This document shows, piece after piece, positions 33,717-48,171 of a stretch of DNA of 64,000 nt. Below the pieces are notes generated by a model. The model saw nothing but the letters and a program-made list of their open reading frames with translations, was not told where the DNA came from and did no database searches. Made by a program: the position numbers and the translations under genes. Each line of letters opens with the position of its first letter. Within the stretch, counting starts at the first letter, position 1. This DNA is from Chloroflexota bacterium (GTDB taxonomy: Bacteria; Chloroflexota; Dehalococcoidia; JACPEP01): NCBI GenBank assembly GCA_016183425.1, contig JACPEP010000017.1:1-64000 (forward strand), read 5' to 3'.

Positions 33717-36215
33717 CTATCTCCGCTCCGGAAAACCTTCTGCCAGGCCTCGCCAGAACCCCAGTCCCCAGGCCATGTGTATTATCATGAAGACCAGAGG
33801 TAGGATAGGCAGGTAGCGCCACCCTCCCTTTGCCGCCAGGGGCGCCGAGAAGCTCACCGCCGCCAAAAGATAGATAAGCAGAACGGCAGCGAAAAGCCAG
33901 GCGACAATGGGTGTCGTCCAGAAGAGCAGGCCGCTGGCTGCCAGAATCAATATCAAGCCGGGAGCCGCCATCTGCCGCGGCAAGAGGGAGTGGTGCTTTC
34001 GCATCAGGTGAGTTCGCCACATGCCATACTGGAAATACTGCTTGGCCAGTCCCGGTAGCGAGTCCCGGCAGTAGTAATAGGTCTTTATGGCCGGGGTGAA
34101 GAACACCCTTCCTCCCGCCTGGCGTATGCGGTGGTTGAAGTCGTAGTCCTGCCCTCGCACCATGGTCTCGTCAAAAAGCCCCACTCGGTCGAAAACCTCC
34201 TTGGGGAAGGCCCCGGCATAGACGGTGTCGGCAAACTGCTCCCGGCTGGAATAGCGGTAGCGCGCATCCCCCACACCGAACCGGGAGCCGATGACTAAGG
34301 CGACGGCACTACCGATATAGTTGCGCCCTATCCCCACCATCAGGCCTCCCACGTTCCAGGCCCCCGTTTTCCTCAAATAGTAAATGCACTTCTTGAGATG
34401 ATCGGTCTCCAAGACGGAATGGGCGCTCACCCAAACTACCTTTTCCCCTTTGGCATTTTGAACGCCCACATTGAAAGCGCACGGAGTTATTTTTCTGGGA
34501 TTGTCCACCAGCCTTACACCAGGGTGCTCTTCCGCCAAGCGAAGCACCTCCTCCCGGGAGCCGTCGGTGGACATGCCATCCATCACCAGCACCTCCATAC
34601 GGTCTGAGGGATAGTCCTGGCTGAACACCGAGTTCAGGCAGTGGGCGATGTACTTCTTCTCGTTGCGCATGGGGATGACTACGGAGATAAAGGGTAGGGA
34701 ATCCTCCATCGCCCAGGGTGTGCGCTGGCTCTCTGCCGGGCTTTTCCCCCAACCCAGCCAGTTGGTGAGCTTTCCGACATCCCCCACCAGCTCTCTAGGA
34801 GAGGCCAGGTAGAGACGGGATCGGGATAGCGCCTTCTTCAGCAGAAGACGGGGCTGGCGGTTGTATCTATCGAACTCTCGGGCCGCCAACTCCGCCATCT
34901 GGGCCATGTCTTTGGCGCTCAGGTTAGCGGTGAATCGGTTGTGTGGGCTCTGGTGTCCGTACTGGCTCCAGTCCATGGTCTCGGGAATCAGCCCCATGTC
35001 CCGGGAGATCTGGTACAGCTTGGTGCCCGGGTAGGGGGTGAAGATGGAGTAGGTGCTCCAGTGGGGTTTGATCTCCTTCATGAGCTTCAGGGTCTCCTGA
35101 ATGTCCTCCTTGGTCTCGTTGGGGAGGCCGATCATGAAGAAGGCAGACCAGTAAATATCGTGTTTGTTCAATATCCGCGCCGCCTCCCGAATCTTTTCCA
35201 GGGTCAGGCCTTTATCTATAAACTGGAGCACCTGGGCGCTGCCGCTCTCCACCCCCAGCTCAATGTTGTTACAGCCCGCCGCCTTCATCTCCCGCACCAT
35301 CTCCTCGTCGATGAGGTCGAAGCGGGTATTGCAGCTCCAGTAGATGTCTCGACCCTCCTGGCGGAGGGCACGGCAGAGATCATGCACCCGCTCCCGGTTA
35401 ACGGTGAAAGAATCGTCCCAGAAGGTAATCTGCTTGGTGCCATAGGTGTCGCGAACGTGCTTTATCTCCGCCATCACGTTGTCGATGGAGCGATAGCGAA
35501 CGCGGCGCGTCCAAATCAAGTGAGCAGAGCAGTAGGCGCAGGAGAAGGGGCAGCCCCGGCTGGTGAAGATGTTCCCCATGGCCTCCGGGTCGTAGGCTTC
35601 CCGGTCTACCAGGGCCTCTCGAGCAGGGAAGGGAAGGGCATCCAGGTTGGAAATGAGCTCCCGGGGCGGGTTATGCGCCATCTCACCGTTTCTACAGTAG
35701 GAAAGGCCGTCGATTTCTTCCCCACCCCTCCCTTTTTCCAGGGCCTCCACCAATTGGACTAAGGTCTCCTCTCCCTCCCCCCGGGCCACGAAGTCCACAT
35801 CCGGGTTCTTGAGCACCTCCTCCGTCTGAATGGTGGGGTGCTGACCCCCTAGGATGACCGGTATGTGGGGATCATGCTCCTTGCACAGGCGGGCGATGCG
35901 GCAGGCGGAGGCGAACTTCACTGTACGGGAGGTGATGCCCACCACATCCGGCCTATATGTGCGGATGGTCTCCGCCGCCTCCCGCCACACGGGATGGCCT
36001 TCATCTTTCAGGGCTTCAGTATAAAGGTCGAAGGTTTTCAGCAGTCGGGAGGAGCTGAGGTACTGGGGCTGACGGTGAAACTCGGCGTTGTAGATTCTTA
36101 CCTCGTGCCCCCGCTGGAGGAGGGCTCCCCCCAGATAGCCCAAGCCCAGGGGATACCAATCGCATTTAAACCCCATGAACCTTTGAAAAGGTGGCTCTAC
36201 CAGGAGGACGCGCAT
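33717..36215 (-). CDS. Fusion: B12-binding radical SAM (BchE-like) + GT2 glycosyltransferase with C-terminal TMs
   Basis: Single 832-aa ORF: DVVGITSRTVKF...VILGGQHPTIQTEEVL, SRGCPFSCAYCSAHL, then FISVVIPMRNEKKYIAHCLNSVFSQDYPSDRMEVLVMDGMSTDGSREEV...FDETMVRGQDYDFNHRIRQAGG and TM segments. Confidence 0.88.
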   Translation of the reverse strand: MRVLLVEPPFQRFMGFKCDWYPLGLGYLGGALLQRGHEVRIYNAEFHRQPQYLSSSRLLKTFDLYTEALKDEGHPVWREAAETIRTYRPDVVGITSRTVKFASACRIARLCKEHDPHIPVILGGQHPTIQTEEVLKNPDVDFVARGEGEETLVQLVEALEKGRGGEEIDGLSYCRNGEMAHNPPRELISNLDALPFPAREALVDREAYDPEAMGNIFTSRGCPFSCAYCSAHLIWTRRVRYRSIDNVMAEIKHVRDTYGTKQITFWDDSFTVNRERVHDLCRALRQEGRDIYWSCNTRFDLIDEEMVREMKAAGCNNIELGVESGSAQVLQFIDKGLTLEKIREAARILNKHDIYWSAFFMIGLPNETKEDIQETLKLMKEIKPHWSTYSIFTPYPGTKLYQISRDMGLIPETMDWSQYGHQSPHNRFTANLSAKDMAQMAELAAREFDRYNRQPRLLLKKALSRSRLYLASPRELVGDVGKLTNWLGWGKSPAESQRTPWAMEDSLPFISVVIPMRNEKKYIAHCLNSVFSQDYPSDRMEVLVMDGMSTDGSREEVLRLAEEHPGVRLVDNPRKITPCAFNVGVQNAKGEKVVWVSAHSVLETDHLKKCIYYLRKTGAWNVGGLMVGIGRNYIGSAVALVIGSRFGVGDARYRYSSREQFADTVYAGAFPKEVFDRVGLFDETMVRGQDYDFNHRIRQAGGRVFFTPAIKTYYYCRDSLPGLAKQYFQYGMWRTHLMRKHHSLLPRQMAAPGLILILAASGLLFWTTPIVAWLFAAVLLIYLLAAVSFSAPLAAKGGWRYLPILPLVFMIIHMAWGLGFWRGLAEGFPERR

Positions 36216-36228
36216 ACCAAAACCATCT

Positions 36229-37347
36229 CTATGGGCTGGCCAAAGGCTGCCGGATCTGGGCCCGGACCTCTGCCGCCACCCGCTGGATATATTCTTCCGT
36301 CATCTCCGGATACATGGGCAGGGACACCACCTCCTCCGCGGCCCCCTCCGCCTGGGGGAAGCTTCCCTTTTCGTGGTTCAGGTGCCGGTAGGCGGGCTGA
36401 AGGTGAAGGGGGATGGGGTAGTGGACGCCCGTCTCTATGCCTCTGGCCCTGAGCCGTCCCTGCAACCCCTCTCGATCCTTGACTCGGATTACGTACAGGT
36501 GATAGACGGAGCGAGCGTAATCGGGCTCATGGGGAGTGGCCACCCCAGAGCCCGGAAAGAGCTGGTTGTATCGCTGGGCGATGGCACGGCGGCGCTGGTT
36601 CCACTGGAATAGTCGCCTCAGCTTCACCCGAAGCACCGCCGCCTGGAGGTTGTCCAGCCGATGGCCGAAGCCCTCCACCAGGTGCTCGTACTTGGACACC
36701 CGGCCGTGGTTGCGTAAAAGGCGAACCTGGTGTGCCACCTCTGGGTCGTTGGTGGTCACCATGCCGGCGTCGCCAAAGGCGCCCAGGTTCTTGGCGGGAT
36801 AGAAGCTGAAACAGCCGGCATCTCCCAGACCCCCCACCCGGCGTCCTTTGTATTCGGCGCCGTGGGCCTGGGCGGCATCCTCGATCACCCGCAGGCCCCG
36901 CCGCCGGGCGATATGGAGAATGGGGTCCATATCCGCTGGCTGGCCATAGAGGTGAACGGGCAAAATAGCCCTGGTACGAGAAGTTATGGCTTCCTCAAGA
37001 CGCCTGGGGTCTATATTGTAGGTCAGGGGGTCTATATCCACGAAGACGGGACGGGCTCCGCAGTGGGTCACGGCCTCGGCGGTGGCGATGAAGGTGTGGG
37101 GCGTGGTCACCACCTCGTCCCCGGGGCCGACCCCGCAGGCCAGGAGGGCCAGATGGAGGGCAGCCGTCCCCGAGCCGACGCCGATGGCGTGCCGGACGGA
37201 GCAAAAAGAGGCAAATTCCTCCTCCAGGTGGTCCAACTCCGGGCCCATGATGAAGTCCCCCTCCTGGATGACCCGCTGCATGGCCTCATCCACCTCATCC
37301 TTTATGGACTGATACTGGGCCCTCAAGTCTACCAGAGGGATGAGCAT
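36229..37347 (-). CDS. DegT/DnrJ/EryC1/StrS sugar aminotransferase (WbpE-like)
   Basis: [86 protein letters not shown]. Confidence 0.93.
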
Positions 37348-37348
37348 T

Positions 37349-38002
37349 CTAACCTCCTTGGTCCCCGTAGGGATGCTCGATCAGACCATAGGGGCAGTTA
37401 AGCTCGCTGATGTGCTTCACCATTTGAGCCGGATTGCCGACGACCACGGCACCGGGAGCCACGTCGCCCACCACTACCGCCCCGGCTCCCACCAGGGCAT
37501 TTTCCCCAATGACAATGTCAGGCAACAGTGTGGCGTTGGCGCCGATCTTGGCCCCTCGTCCTACCCTCGGCCCCCGAGCGCATTCCTTGGCTTTAGGACA
37601 ATAGGGATGGAGAGTATTCGCAAGGACAACCTGGGGCCCGATACGGCAGCCCTGCTCTAGTGTGGAGTGCTCGGGTATAAAGCTCTGGCTGTGAATGCGG
37701 ACGTCGTCCTCGATGGCCACGTGATGCTCGATCACGGTATGGGTGCCGACGCTTACTCGGTTGCCGATGCGCGTGAACTCCCGAATCATGGCGGCATGGC
37801 CGGTGGCAAAGTCGTCGCCAATGACGGCGCCAGCATAGATCACGGTGTGGGAACGGATGATAGCGTTGCAACCGATAACCAGAGGGATCTCTCCCGGCAG
37901 AGCCCCCCCAGGAGGAACGCCGAGAACAACGAAGTCGCCGAGTTCAGCGTTCTCCCCCAGAGTAACGTTAGGATAGATGCGAGAGGTAGCCTGTGCTTTC
38001 AC
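37349..38002 (-). CDS. Left-handed beta-helix (hexapeptide) N-acyltransferase, WbpD-like
   Basis: Hexapeptide repeats: [20 protein letters not shown]...[51 protein letters not shown]; probable GTG start at 38002 overlapping the upstream gene by 4 bp. Confidence 0.85.
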
Positions 38003-39600
38003 TCCGCCCCCCTCCTCTCGAAGAAGCGTTCTTCCTCCATATGCCCCTGGCCGTAGCGCCATAAAAGGGGGGAAAAGCGAATGCCCCGTTTCCAGCAAAA
38101 CTCTCGCACCTCGTCGGCGAGGCGGTCCTGGACGCCGATGACCCTTTTCTGGGTCAGGTCGAAATAAGTGGCCTCCACGCTGGGCAGCGACAAGGGCATC
38201 ATCTCCAATCCCAGAAAAACCACACGACGATGCTCCGCCACCCTCTCCGCCACGTCCTGGTCTATGACTTTCCCGTAAACGATGGCCCCCGAAACCCCTC
38301 CCGTTGCCTCTAGGATAATGACGCCGCCCTCCTCTCGCCGGGTCACCCGCCAGCCCTTGTCTTCCATAAGGCCCATAATCTCCGGCAGGCGGGCGCGAAA
38401 TATGAGGTCCTTCTGCTCCAGAGTCAGGTCCCGCCCGGCGGCTTTAATCACCGTGGCTGGCACACCTCCCACCAGAGTTCGGGGAGGCACGTCGGCGGTG
38501 ACGTACGAGTTCACCATGACCGCGGCGCCATCGCCGATAGTCACGCCAGGAAAGACGAAGCAGTTTACCCCCAGGAAGACGTGGTTGCCGATGGCCACCG
38601 GGCCCCAACGGGCGGGGTAGCCCTCCAGTATGGACTGCCAATGGCTGTGGGTAAAAATGATTGCCTTGGGGGCCAGACATACCTCATTGCCCAGGGTGAT
38701 AGGGTGGCAGGGGTTGATATAGGAGGCGGTGCCGAAGAAGCACATGTCGCCCACCTTTAGCTTCGCCCCCGGGTCCTTGTGGCCGCCGCCGCCGATGACC
38801 ACGTCCTCCTTGGTGTAAAGGAGGTCGCCGATGTCTATCTCCCGACAACTGGCCTGCACCCTGGTGCCAAAGCTTACCATGCGCCCCAGGCGCAGGCGGT
38901 CGCAGTCGATAATGGTGCCCTCGCCGATGACGGTGCCCGGGCCGATAACTATCTTTTGGGCCACGATAACGGAGCCTGCCTCTAGCCTTACATCCTGGCC
39001 GATGACAGCACCGTGTATACGGTACAGGTGTACCTTCATCTCAGAAGACAGTTTGGAAAAGCCCTCCCTGTCCCGGGAGAGGAGACTGAAGAAATGAGGG
39101 TCCAGCGCTCCGCCGCCCCCAGATATGGATACCCCGCCCCCTCCTTCCCAAGAGGTAGCTACATCCCGGATCGTGACCTCCCCTCGGGGTCCCGTTCCCG
39201 TCACGTCTTTAAGCTCTACTCCCTTCTCTCGGGCCAGCCGCCGAGCGGCGGGCGACGCCGGCACCCTTCCCTGAGATAGAAGGTTGATGGGGTATTCAGT
39301 ATTCCCGTCGGAGGAGGCTACCGCCGCGATGGGAGCCACCTTGTCAAGTCGAACCTCCTCCCACTCCTCATCTCCCATCAAGGCGATAACACTCAAAACG
39401 GCGACGGTTTCCCCCTCCCGGGTCAGGATGCGTTTCAACTCTCCTGACTCCTCCGCCTCCAGCTCTACCACCGCTTTGTCCGTTTCGATGGACGCCAGCA
39501 CCTCCCCCTTCTCCACCCAGTCGCCCTCCTTCTTGTGCCATTGGGCGATTAGGGCTTCGGTCATATTGGCGCCTATTTGGGGTAGGATCACTCTGGTCAT
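37999..39600 (-). CDS. Lipoyl domain + peripheral-subunit-binding domain + left-handed beta-helix acyltransferase fusion (non-canonical E2-like protein)
   Basis: Lipoyl: MTRVILPQIGANMTEALIAQWHKKEGDWVEKGEVLASIETDKAVVELEAEESGEL. PSBD: VPASPAARRLAREKGVELKDVTGTGPRGEVTIRDV. LbH: VIGPGTVIGEGTIIDCDRLRLGRMVSFG...HSHWQSI...VAIGNHVFLGVNCFVFPGVTIGDGAAVMVNSYVTADVPPRTLVGGVPATVIK. No E2 CAT domain is apparent. Confidence 0.88.
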   Translation of the reverse strand: MTRVILPQIGANMTEALIAQWHKKEGDWVEKGEVLASIETDKAVVELEAEESGELKRILTREGETVAVLSVIALMGDEEWEEVRLDKVAPIAAVASSDGNTEYPINLLSQGRVPASPAARRLAREKGVELKDVTGTGPRGEVTIRDVATSWEGGGGVSISGGGGALDPHFFSLLSRDREGFSKLSSEMKVHLYRIHGAVIGQDVRLEAGSVIVAQKIVIGPGTVIGEGTIIDCDRLRLGRMVSFGTRVQASCREIDIGDLLYTKEDVVIGGGGHKDPGAKLKVGDMCFFGTASYINPCHPITLGNEVCLAPKAIIFTHSHWQSILEGYPARWGPVAIGNHVFLGVNCFVFPGVTIGDGAAVMVNSYVTADVPPRTLVGGVPATVIKAAGRDLTLEQKDLIFRARLPEIMGLMEDKGWRVTRREEGGVIILEATGGVSGAIVYGKVIDQDVAERVAEHRRVVFLGLEMMPLSLPSVEATYFDLTQKRVIGVQDRLADEVREFCWKRGIRFSPLLWRYGQGHMEEERFFERRGAE

Positions 39601-40577
39601 ATCTGTGCCATCACCTGGGTCACTGCCCGATAGATATCCTCCTTGCTGGGCAAGATGTGCTTCTCTAACTGGTAGCTGAAGGGTATGGGCACGTCTTTAG
39701 CCGCCACCCTTTGGATAGGAGCGTCCAGGTATTCATAGGCGCGCTCCTGGATCTGCATCCCCACCTCCGCGCCTACACCGCCCGTCTTGTGGCCCTCCTC
39801 CGCGATGACCACCCGCCCCGTTTTCTTCACCGATGCCACCACCTGGTTTATATCCAGGGGAGACAGGCTGCGGAGGTCGATGACCTCGACGCCGATGTTC
39901 TCTTTCTCCAGCTCTTGGGCCACCTCCAGGGCCATCAAAGTCAGGTAGGAGTAGGTTACCAGGGTTACATCCCGGCCCGCTCTCTTAATGTGGGCCTGCC
40001 CCAGGGGAACGGTGTACTCCTCCTGGGGAACGGGGCCCTTGGTGGCATACAACAGCTTGTGCTCCACAAAAAGGACCGGGTTATCGTCCCGAATGGCTGT
40101 CTTAAGAAGGCCCTTGGCATCGTAAGGGGTGGCCGGTGCCACCACCTTTAGCCCTGGGGTGTGGAGGAACCAGGCCTCCCAGCTTTGGGAGTGGCTGGGG
40201 CCGTAGGAGCGCCATCCTCCGGCGGGGGTTCTCACCACCAGTGGCACCTGCGCCTGGTCGCCGAAAATATAGTGCATTTTGGCGGCGTGATTCACCAATT
40301 GGTCCATGGCCAGGGTGATGAAATCCATGAACATGATCTCCACTACCGGTCTCATGCCAGTGACGGCCGCTCCCAGGGCCACGCCCACTATAGCCGCCTC
40401 GGAGACGGGGGTGTTCCTCACCCGCTCCGAACCGAAGCGCTCTAACATGCCTCGGGTGACCCCGAAGGCGCCGCCGTAGACGCCGATATCTTCCCCCAGG
40501 AGGAACACCATCTCGTCCCGGGCCATCTCCTCCGTCAGGGCCTCTTGAACACCCTGCCAGTAGGTCAGCTCCCTCAT
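39597..40577 (-). CDS. 2-oxoacid/acetoin dehydrogenase E1 component, beta subunit
   Basis: LTYWQGVQEALTEEMARDEMVFLLGEDIGVYGGAFGVTRGMLERFG...NTPVSEAAIVGVALGAA...VIDLRSLSPLDINQVVASVKKTGRVVIAEEGHKTGG. Confidence 0.94.
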   Translation of the reverse strand: MRELTYWQGVQEALTEEMARDEMVFLLGEDIGVYGGAFGVTRGMLERFGSERVRNTPVSEAAIVGVALGAAVTGMRPVVEIMFMDFITLAMDQLVNHAAKMHYIFGDQAQVPLVVRTPAGGWRSYGPSHSQSWEAWFLHTPGLKVVAPATPYDAKGLLKTAIRDDNPVLFVEHKLLYATKGPVPQEEYTVPLGQAHIKRAGRDVTLVTYSYLTLMALEVAQELEKENIGVEVIDLRSLSPLDINQVVASVKKTGRVVIAEEGHKTGGVGAEVGMQIQERAYEYLDAPIQRVAAKDVPIPFSYQLEKHILPSKEDIYRAVTQVMAQI

Positions 40578-41545
40578 GCCAGCACCCCTCGCCCCTCCGG
40601 CACGTAAAGGCCCTCCATGCCCGCCTCCGGGGACGGCAGCGGGCTGCTATGAGCAAACTCTACTGCCCCCTCTACCTCCCTCATCGCCTCGTCCTCCAAG
40701 GCGGACAGGCCTTCCGGAGACAGAAGGCCTGTCTCCAGCAGTGTTCCTTGAAGCCTCAGGATGGGGTCTTTGGCCTGCCACTGGGCCTCCTCCTCTCGGC
40801 TGCGGTACAGGCGCTGGTCGCTTCGAGAGTGGCCGAAGAAGCGGTAGGTCTTGGCCTCGACGAAGAAGGGACCGTGGCCGGCCCGGGCTCGGTCCACCGC
40901 TTCTCCCACTACCTCCCTCACTGCCACAACATCGTTGCCATCTACAGTGGCGTGGGGCATGTTGTAGGCGGCCGCCCGCAGAGCCAGGTCCCTGAGGGGC
41001 ACGGCCTCCCACACCGGGGTGGACATGGCATACAGGTTATTCTCGCACAGATAGACAATGGGCAGTTGCCAGAGGGCGGCCATGTTCAGGGATTCATGAA
41101 AAACCCCCTGGTTGACAGCGCCGTCCCCGAAGAAGCAGACCACCACCTGGTGGGTATGGCGCATCTTGATAGACAGAGCGGCGCCCGTGGCCAGGGGGAT
41201 GCCTCCGCCGGTTATGCCGTTGGAGCCCAGGTGGCCGATGCTGAAGTCGGCCATGTGCTGGGTGCCCCCTTTGCCCTGGCAGTAGCCGTCTATCTTGCCG
41301 AAGAGCTCGGCCATGATGCGCTTGACGTCTCCCCCTTTGGCGATGAAGTGGCCGTGGCCCCGGTGGGTGCTGGTGATGTAGTCCTCTCTGCTCAGCACGG
41401 AGCAGGTGCCAGTGGCCACCGCCTCCTGGCCAGCGTAGAGGTGGGAGGTGCCCTTGATGAAGCCCTGGGCTACCAGCTTGTCCACCCGCTCCTCAAAACG
41501 GCGAATGAGAAGCATGGTGCGCAGGTAATCCACTAGCTCTGGCAC
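40574..41545 (-). CDS. 2-oxoacid/acetoin dehydrogenase E1 component, alpha subunit
   Basis: LLIRRFEERVDKLVAQGFIKGTSHLYAGQEAVATG, YCQGKGGTQHMADF, TPP motif FFGDGAVNQGVFHESLNMAALWQLPIVYLCENN. Confidence 0.94.
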   Translation of the reverse strand: MPELVDYLRTMLLIRRFEERVDKLVAQGFIKGTSHLYAGQEAVATGTCSVLSREDYITSTHRGHGHFIAKGGDVKRIMAELFGKIDGYCQGKGGTQHMADFSIGHLGSNGITGGGIPLATGAALSIKMRHTHQVVVCFFGDGAVNQGVFHESLNMAALWQLPIVYLCENNLYAMSTPVWEAVPLRDLALRAAAYNMPHATVDGNDVVAVREVVGEAVDRARAGHGPFFVEAKTYRFFGHSRSDQRLYRSREEEAQWQAKDPILRLQGTLLETGLLSPEGLSALEDEAMREVEGAVEFAHSSPLPSPEAGMEGLYVPEGRGVLA

Positions 41546-41546
41546 G

Positions 41547-42548
41547 TTAGACCCTCTCTGTTTTACCCTGATGGTTCAGGGAGCGCTGGGCAGCCTCCAG
41601 GACCCGCACCACTCTAAGGCCGTTGTGGCCATCTGTCTGAGGCGTTTTGCCTTCCTCGATGCAGCTCAGGAAATGGCTACATTCATTGCGTAGGGGCTCG
41701 GTGAGGTCGATCTGGGGGATGGAGATGTCCCCAGAGTGAAGGCGGTATTGAAACTCGCCGTAGATCTCCCCTCTTATGTGTACCCCTTTGTCATAGACCT
41801 TCACCTTCGCCTCGTTGTCCACGTCATCGTAAACCACCATTTTCTGGCTTCCCACGATGGTCACTCTTCTCATCTTGCTGGGGTCCAGCCAGCTGGCATG
41901 GACGTGGGCCGCTATCCCCTCCGGAAACATCAGATGGATAAATACTACGTCCTCCACCTGGCTGTTCAGGTAGCTGGCGCCCCGGACGCTCACCTCCAGG
42001 GGCATCGCCTCCAGAAGGTAGAGGAGGATGGAAAGGTCATGGGGAGCGATGCTCCACAGGGCGTTCAGATCCCTCTGCACCTGGCCCAGGTTGACCCGAG
42101 TGGAGTATATGTAGTAGATGCGGCCGATGTTCCCCTGGCTTATCAGCTCCTTGATTTTGATCACCGCCGGGTTGTACTCGAAAATGTGTCCCACCATGAG
42201 GATACGATGGTACTTTTGGGCTGTGGCGACCAGCTCCTCTCCTTCTTTGGATGTCATGGTCATAGGTTTTTCTACCAGGATGTGTTTGCCTGCCTCCAGG
42301 GCCTCCTTTGCCAACTGCAGATGGGTCTGGGCGGGGGTGGCGATGACTACGCCATGAATGTCTTTATCTTCCAGGAGCTCTCGGTAGTCGCTGGTGGTCT
42401 TGGCGGCGGGATAAAGTCTCTGAGCTTGAGACAGACGTTTCCCATCCCTATCGCAGATGGTGGTCAGAGCACCCAACTGATGGAAGTTGCGGGCCAGGTT
42501 AGGGCCCCAGTATCCGTAGCCGACAAGCCCAACCCTAATGGTCAACAA
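41547..42548 (-). CDS. Gfo/Idh/MocA-family oxidoreductase (WbpB-like sugar dehydrogenase)
   Basis: IRVGLVGYGYWGPNLARNFHQLGALTTICDRD, GVVIATPAQTHLQLAKEALEAGKHILVEKPM; likely TTG start preceded by GAGGGG. Confidence 0.88.
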   Translation of the reverse strand: MLTIRVGLVGYGYWGPNLARNFHQLGALTTICDRDGKRLSQAQRLYPAAKTTSDYRELLEDKDIHGVVIATPAQTHLQLAKEALEAGKHILVEKPMTMTSKEGEELVATAQKYHRILMVGHIFEYNPAVIKIKELISQGNIGRIYYIYSTRVNLGQVQRDLNALWSIAPHDLSILLYLLEAMPLEVSVRGASYLNSQVEDVVFIHLMFPEGIAAHVHASWLDPSKMRRVTIVGSQKMVVYDDVDNEAKVKVYDKGVHIRGEIYGEFQYRLHSGDISIPQIDLTEPLRNECSHFLSCIEEGKTPQTDGHNGLRVVRVLEAAQRSLNHQGKTERV

Positions 42549-42576
42549 TCACCCCTCATAGAAACCCACGCTTTAA

Positions 42577-42605
42577 AAAATACCCTCTTGGGGGAGGGCT
42601 GTCAA
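42577..42605 (-). promoter_or_regulatory. Candidate sigma70-type promoter TTGACA-N17-TATTTT
   Basis: On the minus strand, TTGACA (42605-42600), 17-nt spacer, TATTTT (42582-42577); upstream of the Gfo/Idh-E1-lipoyl operon. Confidence 0.55.
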
Positions 42606-46770: not shown

Positions 46771-48171
46771 TCATAACCCTATTTTGGCCCATTTCAGTTT
46801 TCTAAACCCGTAGAGGGCCATTCTCAAAAGTTGAAGGCCATGGCGGAATGTTTTCATCTTGGATTCACCAGCAACCCTTGCTTTATAATGCACTGGCATC
46901 TCCCCGATCTTAAGACCCAGCTTGGCGGCGCCAATAAGCAGATCGAAGTCACCCCAAGGACAGTGTCCCATCTCAATGTGGCGATAGTCTTCCCTGCGTA
47001 AAGCTTTAGTGCCGCAGAGGGTATCTGTGACTCGGCTGGCTAGCAACCAGGTGAAAATAAGGCTGAAGATTCGGTTACCCAGACGATGAAGGTGCCTCAT
47101 AGCTTGCTTTTCTTGGGGGTATATCATTCTGGTGCCATTGGCAAAATCGGCCATGCCTTTATCGATCACTTCAAAAAAGCGGGGGAGTTCCTCTGGCGGA
47201 ACCGCCATGTCTGCGTCCAGGACCATGATGACATCACCCAGGGCAGCATCGAAGCCAGCCTTTACGGCCCCACCTTTGCCCCGATTTGGCCAGTAGGAGA
47301 TCAACTTCAGGTTTTCATATTCTCCTATTAGTTGAGAGACAACCGTTGCTGTCCCATCGGTGGAACCATCGTCAACGACGATAACTTCGGTATCACGTCC
47401 CATATTTGGAAGGCGACGGATGCACTTCTCAATATTTTCCTCTTCGTTGAAGCAGGGAATAATTACTGAGCAAGAAAAATTTCTTGATGTCAAAACCTGG
47501 GGGACCGCTTTGGCCACCAGATATTGCACTACACACAATTTCTTCAGCCCCGGGACAAGGGGGGCTACTTTGTTGAGAAGGTCCGATATGAAAGGAATGC
47601 ATATGGGAAGTAAAACCCTATATCCTGTCTCCTGGATCTCAAAACCAGCCAACCTAAAAAGGGCCACCACATCATCTAGTTGCATCCAGTTGTGGGGACC
47701 TTCAGGCATTTTCATTCGTAGCATTTCGCCAACCCGTAGGATCGGCTCCCATATTGGGTTGACGAAGGATACCACCACCATTGTTGTTGGTTTGCCCACT
47801 GCGTGAAGCTCGTTGATGGTTGCCCAAATGTCAGTAAGGTGCTCCAATACGTCCTGTATGATTATGTAGTCGTATTTTTGTCCTCCGTCTAGCTGTTCGA
47901 CGCCGCCGTATTTGAAGGATAGCTCGGGGTATTCTTCCTGAGCTCTCCTTACCATCTCCCGGCTAAGGCCGATGCAAGTTCCCTTCTGGGGTCTTAAGGA
48001 CGATAAAACACCCGCTGAGCCGGTCCCTATTTCCAGAACATCACTGCCCGGTGGAACAAACGTTGCAAAGAGTTCCCTTATGCGGGTGAAATAATAATCG
48101 GCTTTCTTCACCCACTTTTGATAGTCCTCGGCAATATTGTCTAGATGTTGGGCAACATCTACTTTGTTCAT
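46771..48171 (-). CDS. Fused SAM methyltransferase + GT2 glycosyltransferase
   Basis: N-terminal DVLEIGTGSAGVLSSLRPQKGTCIGLS, C-terminal SVIIPCFNEEENIEKCIRRLPNMGRDTEVIVVDDGSTDGTATVV...VIMVLDADMAVPPEELPRF. Confidence 0.87.
   Translation of the reverse strand: MNKVDVAQHLDNIAEDYQKWVKKADYYFTRIRELFATFVPPGSDVLEIGTGSAGVLSSLRPQKGTCIGLSREMVRRAQEEYPELSFKYGGVEQLDGGQKYDYIIIQDVLEHLTDIWATINELHAVGKPTTMVVVSFVNPIWEPILRVGEMLRMKMPEGPHNWMQLDDVVALFRLAGFEIQETGYRVLLPICIPFISDLLNKVAPLVPGLKKLCVVQYLVAKAVPQVLTSRNFSCSVIIPCFNEEENIEKCIRRLPNMGRDTEVIVVDDGSTDGTATVVSQLIGEYENLKLISYWPNRGKGGAVKAGFDAALGDVIMVLDADMAVPPEELPRFFEVIDKGMADFANGTRMIYPQEKQAMRHLHRLGNRIFSLIFTWLLASRVTDTLCGTKALRREDYRHIEMGHCPWGDFDLLIGAAKLGLKIGEMPVHYKARVAGESKMKTFRHGLQLLRMALYGFRKLKWAKIGL

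Follow-up and report, generated by a model that had tools for sequence, protein, structure and literature searches.

A lipoyl-bearing beta-helix acyltransferase encoded with an E1 pair: a possible lipoate-dependent route to acylated amino sugars in a Chloroflexota bacterium

Introduction

Why would a 2-oxoacid dehydrogenase E1 component and a lipoyl-bearing protein be encoded in the middle of a surface-glycan gene cluster? The question is raised by a stretch of 64,000 nucleotides from a Chloroflexota bacterium (GenBank assembly GCA_016183425.1, contig JACPEP010000017.1, positions 1 to 64,000; hereafter the window), in which a block of six minus-strand genes encodes both E1 subunits, three proteins of the amino-sugar type and a fusion of a lipoyl domain, an E1/E3-binding domain (PSBD) and a left-handed beta-helix (LbH) acyltransferase. 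A first-pass annotation had proposed that E1 loads an acyl group from a 2-oxoacid on the lipoyl arm and that the beta-helix domain hands it directly to a sugar, bypassing acyl-coenzyme A (acyl-CoA), and we find this interpretation plausible. The architecture of the fusion is a new form of 2-oxoacid dehydrogenase E2. Judged from domains and gene order, it may belong to a new lipoate-dependent complex in which an acyl group drawn from a 2-oxoacid, possibly other than acetyl and set by E1, would travel on the swinging arm and be placed directly on an amino-sugar nucleotide by the beta-helix acyltransferase, with neither acyl-CoA nor an acylated acyl carrier protein (acyl-ACP) as intermediate. We put the probability of this reading at about 0.45.

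Results

The fusion gene (37999-39600, minus strand) encodes 533 residues, in which Pfam, NCBIfam and PDB sequence searches delimit a lipoyl domain, a linker, the PSBD, a second linker, the LbH domain and a C-terminal domain. The lipoyl domain covers residues 4-73 (39382-39591; PF00364 Biotin_lipoyl, E 1.2e-17, 64 bits against a cut-off of 22.1) and contains the motif ETDKAVVEL at residues 39-47, with the predicted lipoylated Lys42 at 39475-39477, and the PSBD covers residues 113-147 (39160-39264; PF02817 E3_binding, E 7e-15, 55.3 bits against 23.7). The CAT domain expected after these modules in an E2 (PF00198, HxxxDG motif) gave no match at E<=1 in the 533-residue frame and its place is occupied by hexapeptide repeats, so that the combination of lipoyl domain, PSBD and LbH lacking CAT, which the first-pass annotation had described, is confirmed by Pfam and hides no CAT domain. 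The repeats span about residues 197-390 in Pfam (Hexapep_2, E 1.4e-11; Hexapep, E 1e-6) and, together with an AlphaFold2 (AF2) model, place the LbH domain at about residues 190-390 (38431-39033). In the PDB, the N-terminal part matches E2 proteins and residues 248-395 match maltose, galactoside and streptogramin acetyltransferases; the fused LbH also gives a weak match to TIGR02353.

The remaining part of the protein, an alpha/beta domain of about 140 residues (approximately 395-533; 38002-38418), had been overlooked in the first-pass annotation and was recognized by alignment with free-standing LbH enzymes, which share it, and by the secondary structure of the AF2 model. It has no Pfam match. 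Two AF2 models of the LbH plus C-terminal part were obtained, with mean pLDDT of 65 and 75; in the latter, numbered from residue 161, a helix at 234-254 is followed by beta strands and a helix. Fold searches of the PDB with these models gave no significant match and no structural relative for the C-terminal domain. Across this half, the window protein is 21-34% identical to 13 other aligned sequences, and the invariant columns include a TH pair and positions of a C-terminal domain of FD...GIRF type. The TH pair corresponds to Thr317-His318, invariant in all 14 sequences, and makes His318 (38647-38649) a candidate catalytic histidine.

We regard the fusion as a real gene and a false join within the open reading frame as unlikely, because the frame is unbroken over the junction, the codon-position GC is homogeneous and of coding type across it, and the gene overlaps both neighbours by 4 nt. 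Over its first 150 residues the protein reaches 51% identity with E2s from other families of the same class, so the lipoyl-PSBD arm has not decayed. Nothing pointed to a chimeric assembly; the two halves do occur elsewhere as separate proteins, which is not decisive since a real gene fusion predicts them too. A co-occurrence search for lipoyl, PSBD and LbH across genomes returned no second case: none in 393 genomes of the same class (single-sequence and profile searches), none in 400 of the same phylum, none in two further Chloroflexota classes (158 and 177 genomes), and none among 60 relatives, a broader collection of genome contigs, plasmids or IMG/VR; many LbH relatives came up in these searches. 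About 35 free-standing proteins related to the LbH plus C-terminal half likewise lack the fusion, and the longest open frame among genome relatives is at most 448 residues against 565 for the window. Literature searches on lipoyl plus hexapeptide proteins and on E1 in O-antigen clusters gave nothing relevant, and we found no paper matching such an architecture, in line with the first-pass annotation, which knew of none.

The two genes upstream of the fusion encode the E1 subunits. E1 alpha (40574-41545, minus strand; PF00676 E1_dh, E 1e-84) scores 366.9 bits with TIGR03182, slightly below the cut-off of 393.9, and its thiamine pyrophosphate (TPP) motif GDGAVNQ...ENN lines up with that of human pyruvate dehydrogenase (PDH) E1 alpha. 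E1 beta (39597-40577, minus strand) contains PF02779 Transket_pyr and PF02780 Transketolase_C, reaches 407 bits with NF006667 (cut-off 321), and its nearest PDB entries are beta subunits of PDH and 2-oxoacid dehydrogenases. By sequence, then, the pair is of PDH type. The genome has a conventional operon of E1 alpha, E1 beta and an E2 with lipoyl and CAT (HRVTDG) domains on contig C16, and therefore the set in the cluster is extra and not the housekeeping complex; the two E1 alphas are 50% identical and the two E1 betas 45%. In this sense, the E1 domains, the operonic spacing and the separate normal operon support the idea that the window pair is dedicated to its block. An E3 scoring above its curated cut-off is encoded on contig C38, so that E3 is available and can be shared.

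Of the 29 nearest E1 beta loci retrieved from the class, most adjoin E2 genes with lipoyl and CAT domains. Four E1 pairs with no obvious neighbouring E2 (L064, L072, L074 and L081) were considered as further glycan-cluster systems and rejected, since their wider contexts look like ordinary metabolic ones with nothing glycan-like. Recruitment of E1 alpha, E1 beta and the lipoyl-PSBD arm as one block, from the same nearest operons, is not claimed, as the correlations were not significant and the two E1 trees disagree on the position of the window sequences, with weak support. As a separate observation, plasmid-borne E1 alpha/beta-E2 operons adjoin glucitol/sorbitol phosphotransferase system genes in Nitratireductor, Priestia and Terrarubrum (L141, L142 and L143), a linkage that recurs.

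The other three genes of the block point to an amino sugar. The first (41547-42548, minus strand) encodes a Gfo/Idh/MocA sugar-nucleotide dehydrogenase (PF01408, E 1.4e-27), a candidate 3-dehydrogenase whose best NCBIfam match is NF040723, UDP-GlcNAc 3-dehydrogenase (E 3.9e-57; 194 bits, below the required 450). Downstream of the fusion lies a second LbH acyltransferase (37349-38002, minus strand, GTG start at 38002; six stretches of PF00132), with QdtC (3fs8) as best PDB match (E 3.4e-37), followed by a DegT/DnrJ/EryC1/StrS aminotransferase (36229-37347, minus strand; PF01041, E 4e-132) that is closest in the PDB to sugar C3 aminotransferases: QdtB, the DesV type (2oga among the relatives) and WbpE. 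The position of DegT near these C3 enzymes and the best match of the Gfo protein, below cut-off as it is, support the 3-amino-sugar logic proposed earlier. A comparable trio, Gfo/Idh, DegT and LbH side by side, occurs on a Devosia contig (L049, 240-3053), where Gfo is 44% and DegT 54% identical to those of the window and no E1 was seen.

The block runs from 36229 to 42548 on the minus strand in the tight order Gfo/Idh, E1 alpha, E1 beta, fusion, LbH, DegT, with successive spacings of 1, -4, -4, -4 and 1 nt; the six frames and their gaps and overlaps are as first annotated. It is separated by 161 nt from the next upstream gene. Within this gap a promoter-like TTGACA-N17-TATTTT (42605-42577, minus strand) coincides with position 42605, 57 nt past the Gfo start at 42548, where the first-pass annotation had ended the block. 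We take it as weak evidence; such matches were not enriched over shuffles (1 seen, 2.0 expected). Protein family scans place the block within a surface-glycan cluster of about 34 kb (28122-62112, minus strand) with glycosyltransferases, a Bac_transf sugar transferase, a second DegT, an NDP-sugar epimerase, four B12-radical-SAM proteins and several methyltransferases, and a defence-system library gave no match. Two further fusions were observed in the window: an 832-residue protein joining B12-binding, radical SAM and family 2 glycosyltransferase parts, encoded next to the DegT gene (33717-36215), and a methyltransferase joined to a family 2 glycosyltransferase (46771-48171). The contig is 80.3 kb long and the draft genome has 2.70 Mb in 52 contigs, 95.3% complete.

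Free-standing proteins with the same LbH and C-terminal domains, but no lipoyl domain or PSBD, were found in a same-class genome (L036), on Streptomyces plasmids, in IMG/VR contigs, in 30 of 158 Chloroflexia genomes (26 at full length) and in 5 of 177 genomes of another Chloroflexota class. A profile of this clade, built with the window sequence included, recovers the window at E 2.5e-112. In Chloroflexia, WecB lies on the same side of the gene at all 20 loci compared and a VimE-like deacetylase gene just upstream at 19, the remaining locus being cut by a contig end. The similarity of this enzyme to VimE, the UDP-2,3-diacetamido-glucuronate deacetylase, is that of a remote homologue, with E 1e-13 to 1e-16 and scores under the curated cut-off. 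At four Chloroflexia loci (L130, 1211-8282; L133, 8290-15265; L134, 662-8368; L137, 1601-8579) the order is ACP-like protein, short-chain dehydrogenase/reductase (SDR), acyl-AMP ligase, deacetylase, LbH plus C-terminal domain and WecB, and a fifth (L053, 5771-11477) has the same cassette with the ACP-like frame not called. We term the small protein only ACP-like (107-116 residues, invariant LDSL motif of phosphopantetheine type), because PF00550 is borderline in one case (20.3 bits against 20.8) and gives no match in the other three. The cassette looks like a module for exchange of the N-acyl group of an amino sugar.

In the other Chloroflexota class, two Streptomyces plasmids and IMG/VR contigs, the relatives adjoin a PIG-L de-N-acetylase. 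Five IMG/VR contigs have the two genes directly side by side (L148, 5007-6487; L149, 8-2657; L154, 4998-6520; L157, 4956-6418; L158, 4950-6498), with the PIG-L match of L148 below the Pfam cut-off and the deacetylase of L149 assigned by similarity to L051; on L149 the LbH gene is followed by a FabH-like beta-ketoacyl-ACP synthase III (KAS III) and an SDR. The simplest inference from these contexts is that the clade adds an unusual acyl group, delivered by a carrier protein, to an amine. The deacetylases, ACP-like proteins and acyl-AMP ligases in the neighbourhood therefore put the fused LbH half in a clade of apparently carrier-fed amino-sugar N-acyltransferases. The loci of the relatives have a deacetylase whereas the window has DegT instead, and we infer that these would be the respective sources of the amine. 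Since the only PP-binding (ACP) match detected in the genome is on contig C15, away from the cluster, no carrier other than the fused lipoyl domain was seen in the cluster.

Discussion

The reading that we prefer is that of a complex of the 2-oxoacid dehydrogenase kind that has been redirected to the acylation of glycans. E1 alpha/beta would decarboxylate a pyruvate-like 2-oxoacid on TPP, a step well supported by homology, and, docked on the PSBD, would reductively acylate the lipoyl group on Lys42, as the intact motifs suggest. The arm would then carry the acyl thioester over to an LbH domain of its own trimer, which may use His318 to pass the acyl group to a nucleotide-activated amino sugar, at an amine or less likely at a hydroxyl; dehydrogenation by the Gfo/Idh protein and transamination by DegT, both encoded in the operon, would supply the acceptor amine, and the E3 encoded elsewhere in the genome would reoxidize the dihydrolipoyl group. 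That E1 acylates Lys42 and the LbH passes the acyl group on with no free acyl-CoA seems to us an even bet. Compared with its free-standing relatives, the window would have exchanged ACP and ligase for a lipoyl domain and E1, fused in cis.

Several known systems share features with this one. With pyruvate, acetoin and other 2-oxoacid dehydrogenase complexes the block shares the E1 alpha/beta pair, the ETDKA lipoyl motif, the PSBD, the order E1 alpha, E1 beta, "E2" and an E3 in the genome, but LbH and a new C-terminal domain replace CAT, the setting is a glycan cluster and no E3 gene is adjacent. LpxA, which acts after GnnA and GnnB, takes acyl-ACP as donor. With the WbpB/WbpE/WbpD, GnnA/GnnB (plus LpxA) and QdtB/QdtC pathways the window has in common, on the level of genes alone, Gfo/Idh oxidation, DegT transamination at C3 and LbH N-acylation; it differs by the E1 pair and lipoyl carrier in the operon and by one of its two LbH proteins being fused to the carrier. 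In the GnnA/GnnB case, the 3-OH of UDP-GlcNAc is oxidized and then transaminated to give UDP-GlcNAc3N (PMC7663294). The free-standing LbH enzymes of the VimE-like and PIG-L cassettes share the homologous LbH and C-terminal domains, the invariant Thr-His and the glycan context, whereas they have no lipoyl domain, PSBD or E1, several come with an ACP-like protein, acyl-AMP ligase, KAS III or SDR, and the deacetylase is missing from the window. A precedent for fusion is found in PosA/Pls, where LbH-type tandem domains share a polypeptide with a carrier-bearing nonribosomal peptide synthetase module and the acyl group is held as a thioester (PMC10522769); there, the carrier is of phosphopantetheine type, an adenylation domain is present, the protein is membrane-bound and makes an amino acid polymer, with no lipoyl domain or E1. 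EvdU5/EvdS3 of everninomicin biosynthesis resemble the window in being a PDH-like heterodimer in a sugar pathway, but the hypothesized reaction is C-acetylation of a keto sugar and no lipoyl arm is described (PMC10338323).

Several observations weigh against this scheme. The lipoyl-PSBD-LbH fusion is known from one genome only, there is no E3 gene in the cluster, and no deacetylase was found among the cluster proteins scanned, the PIG-L genes of the genome being only on contigs C17 and C47. The E1 alpha and E1 beta trees place the window sequences differently among the E1s of the class, with weak support. In the PSBD, Glu141 (39178-39180) occupies the position, in a GR motif, that is Arg in all 12 canonical E2s aligned; the corresponding Arg of the Geobacillus E2 contacts E1 and E3, and its replacement might weaken the binding of one or the other. 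Judged by their names, the nearest LbH enzymes in the PDB are CoA-dependent acetyltransferases. Finally, the QdtC-like neighbour could be the CoA-dependent 3-N-acetyltransferase of the operon, and therefore the fused LbH may act at another sugar position. Of the earlier interpretation, which is supported in part, the architecture, the lack of CAT, the dedicated E1 and the amino-sugar logic stand, while its account of the fused LbH is weakened by this neighbour (E 3e-37).

Some of these points favour other explanations. The LbH may be an ordinary acyl-CoA-dependent sugar acyltransferase for which E1 and the lipoyl-PSBD arm make acyl-CoA locally, the LbH itself or the housekeeping E2 moving the acyl group to CoA, so that the fusion only channels. 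The LbH enzymes similar in the PDB are acetyl-CoA acetyltransferases, the second LbH would use acetyl-CoA and a canonical CAT-bearing E2 is at hand in the genome; yet the operon has no CAT domain, several relatives in the LbH clade share their loci with carrier proteins or carrier-dependent enzymes, and simple acetylation would not call for a dedicated E1 with its lipoyl arm, since any cell has free acetyl-CoA. We therefore consider this alternative rather unlikely. Improbable, in our opinion, is that E1 alpha/beta acts as a C2-branching ketolase on a keto sugar while the lipoyl-PSBD part merely scaffolds E1 near the LbH. A PDH-like heterodimer is hypothesized to place an acetyl branch on an NDP-keto-sugar (EvdU5/EvdS3; PMC10338323) and Gfo/Idh would provide the keto sugar, but a ketolase needs no lipoyl domain, whereas the lipoyl-PSBD protein of the window has an intact motif with Lys42 and its gene overlaps that of E1 beta by 4 nt.

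We would give equally little credit to a recent non-adaptive fusion, in which the lipoyl-PSBD part is the leftover of an E2 that lost CAT and the LbH works alone with acyl-CoA. A single example and the loss of the conserved PSBD Arg to Glu would be expected from it; retention of both E1 genes, intact and overlapping, lipoyl and PSBD scores far over the Pfam cut-offs and a continuous coding pattern would not. As for an assembly or binning artefact that joined the start of an E2 to an LbH gene, the draft state in 52 contigs and an architecture unique in the searches made speak for it, whereas the 533-codon frame lies in a single 80.3-kb contig, overlaps each neighbour by 4 nt and is uniform in codon-position GC across the junction, on either side of which the operon is coherent, and we regard such an artefact as highly improbable.

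According to a 2018 paper, only five lipoate-dependent multienzyme complexes have been characterized (PMC6067878). If the proposed acyl transfer through the lipoyl arm is true, the window would encode a further one, acylating sugars instead of CoA, and of a new kind if the transfer is direct. It would also imply that the catalytic domain of E2 can be swapped and that swinging-arm carriers can supply left-handed beta-helix acyltransferases, and it may offer a route, predictable from sequence, by which bacterial glycans would receive N-acyl groups other than acetyl. Independently of the fusion, the cassettes of a deacetylase with an LbH plus C-terminal domain protein constitute a recurrent module, apparently for N-acyl exchange on amino sugars.

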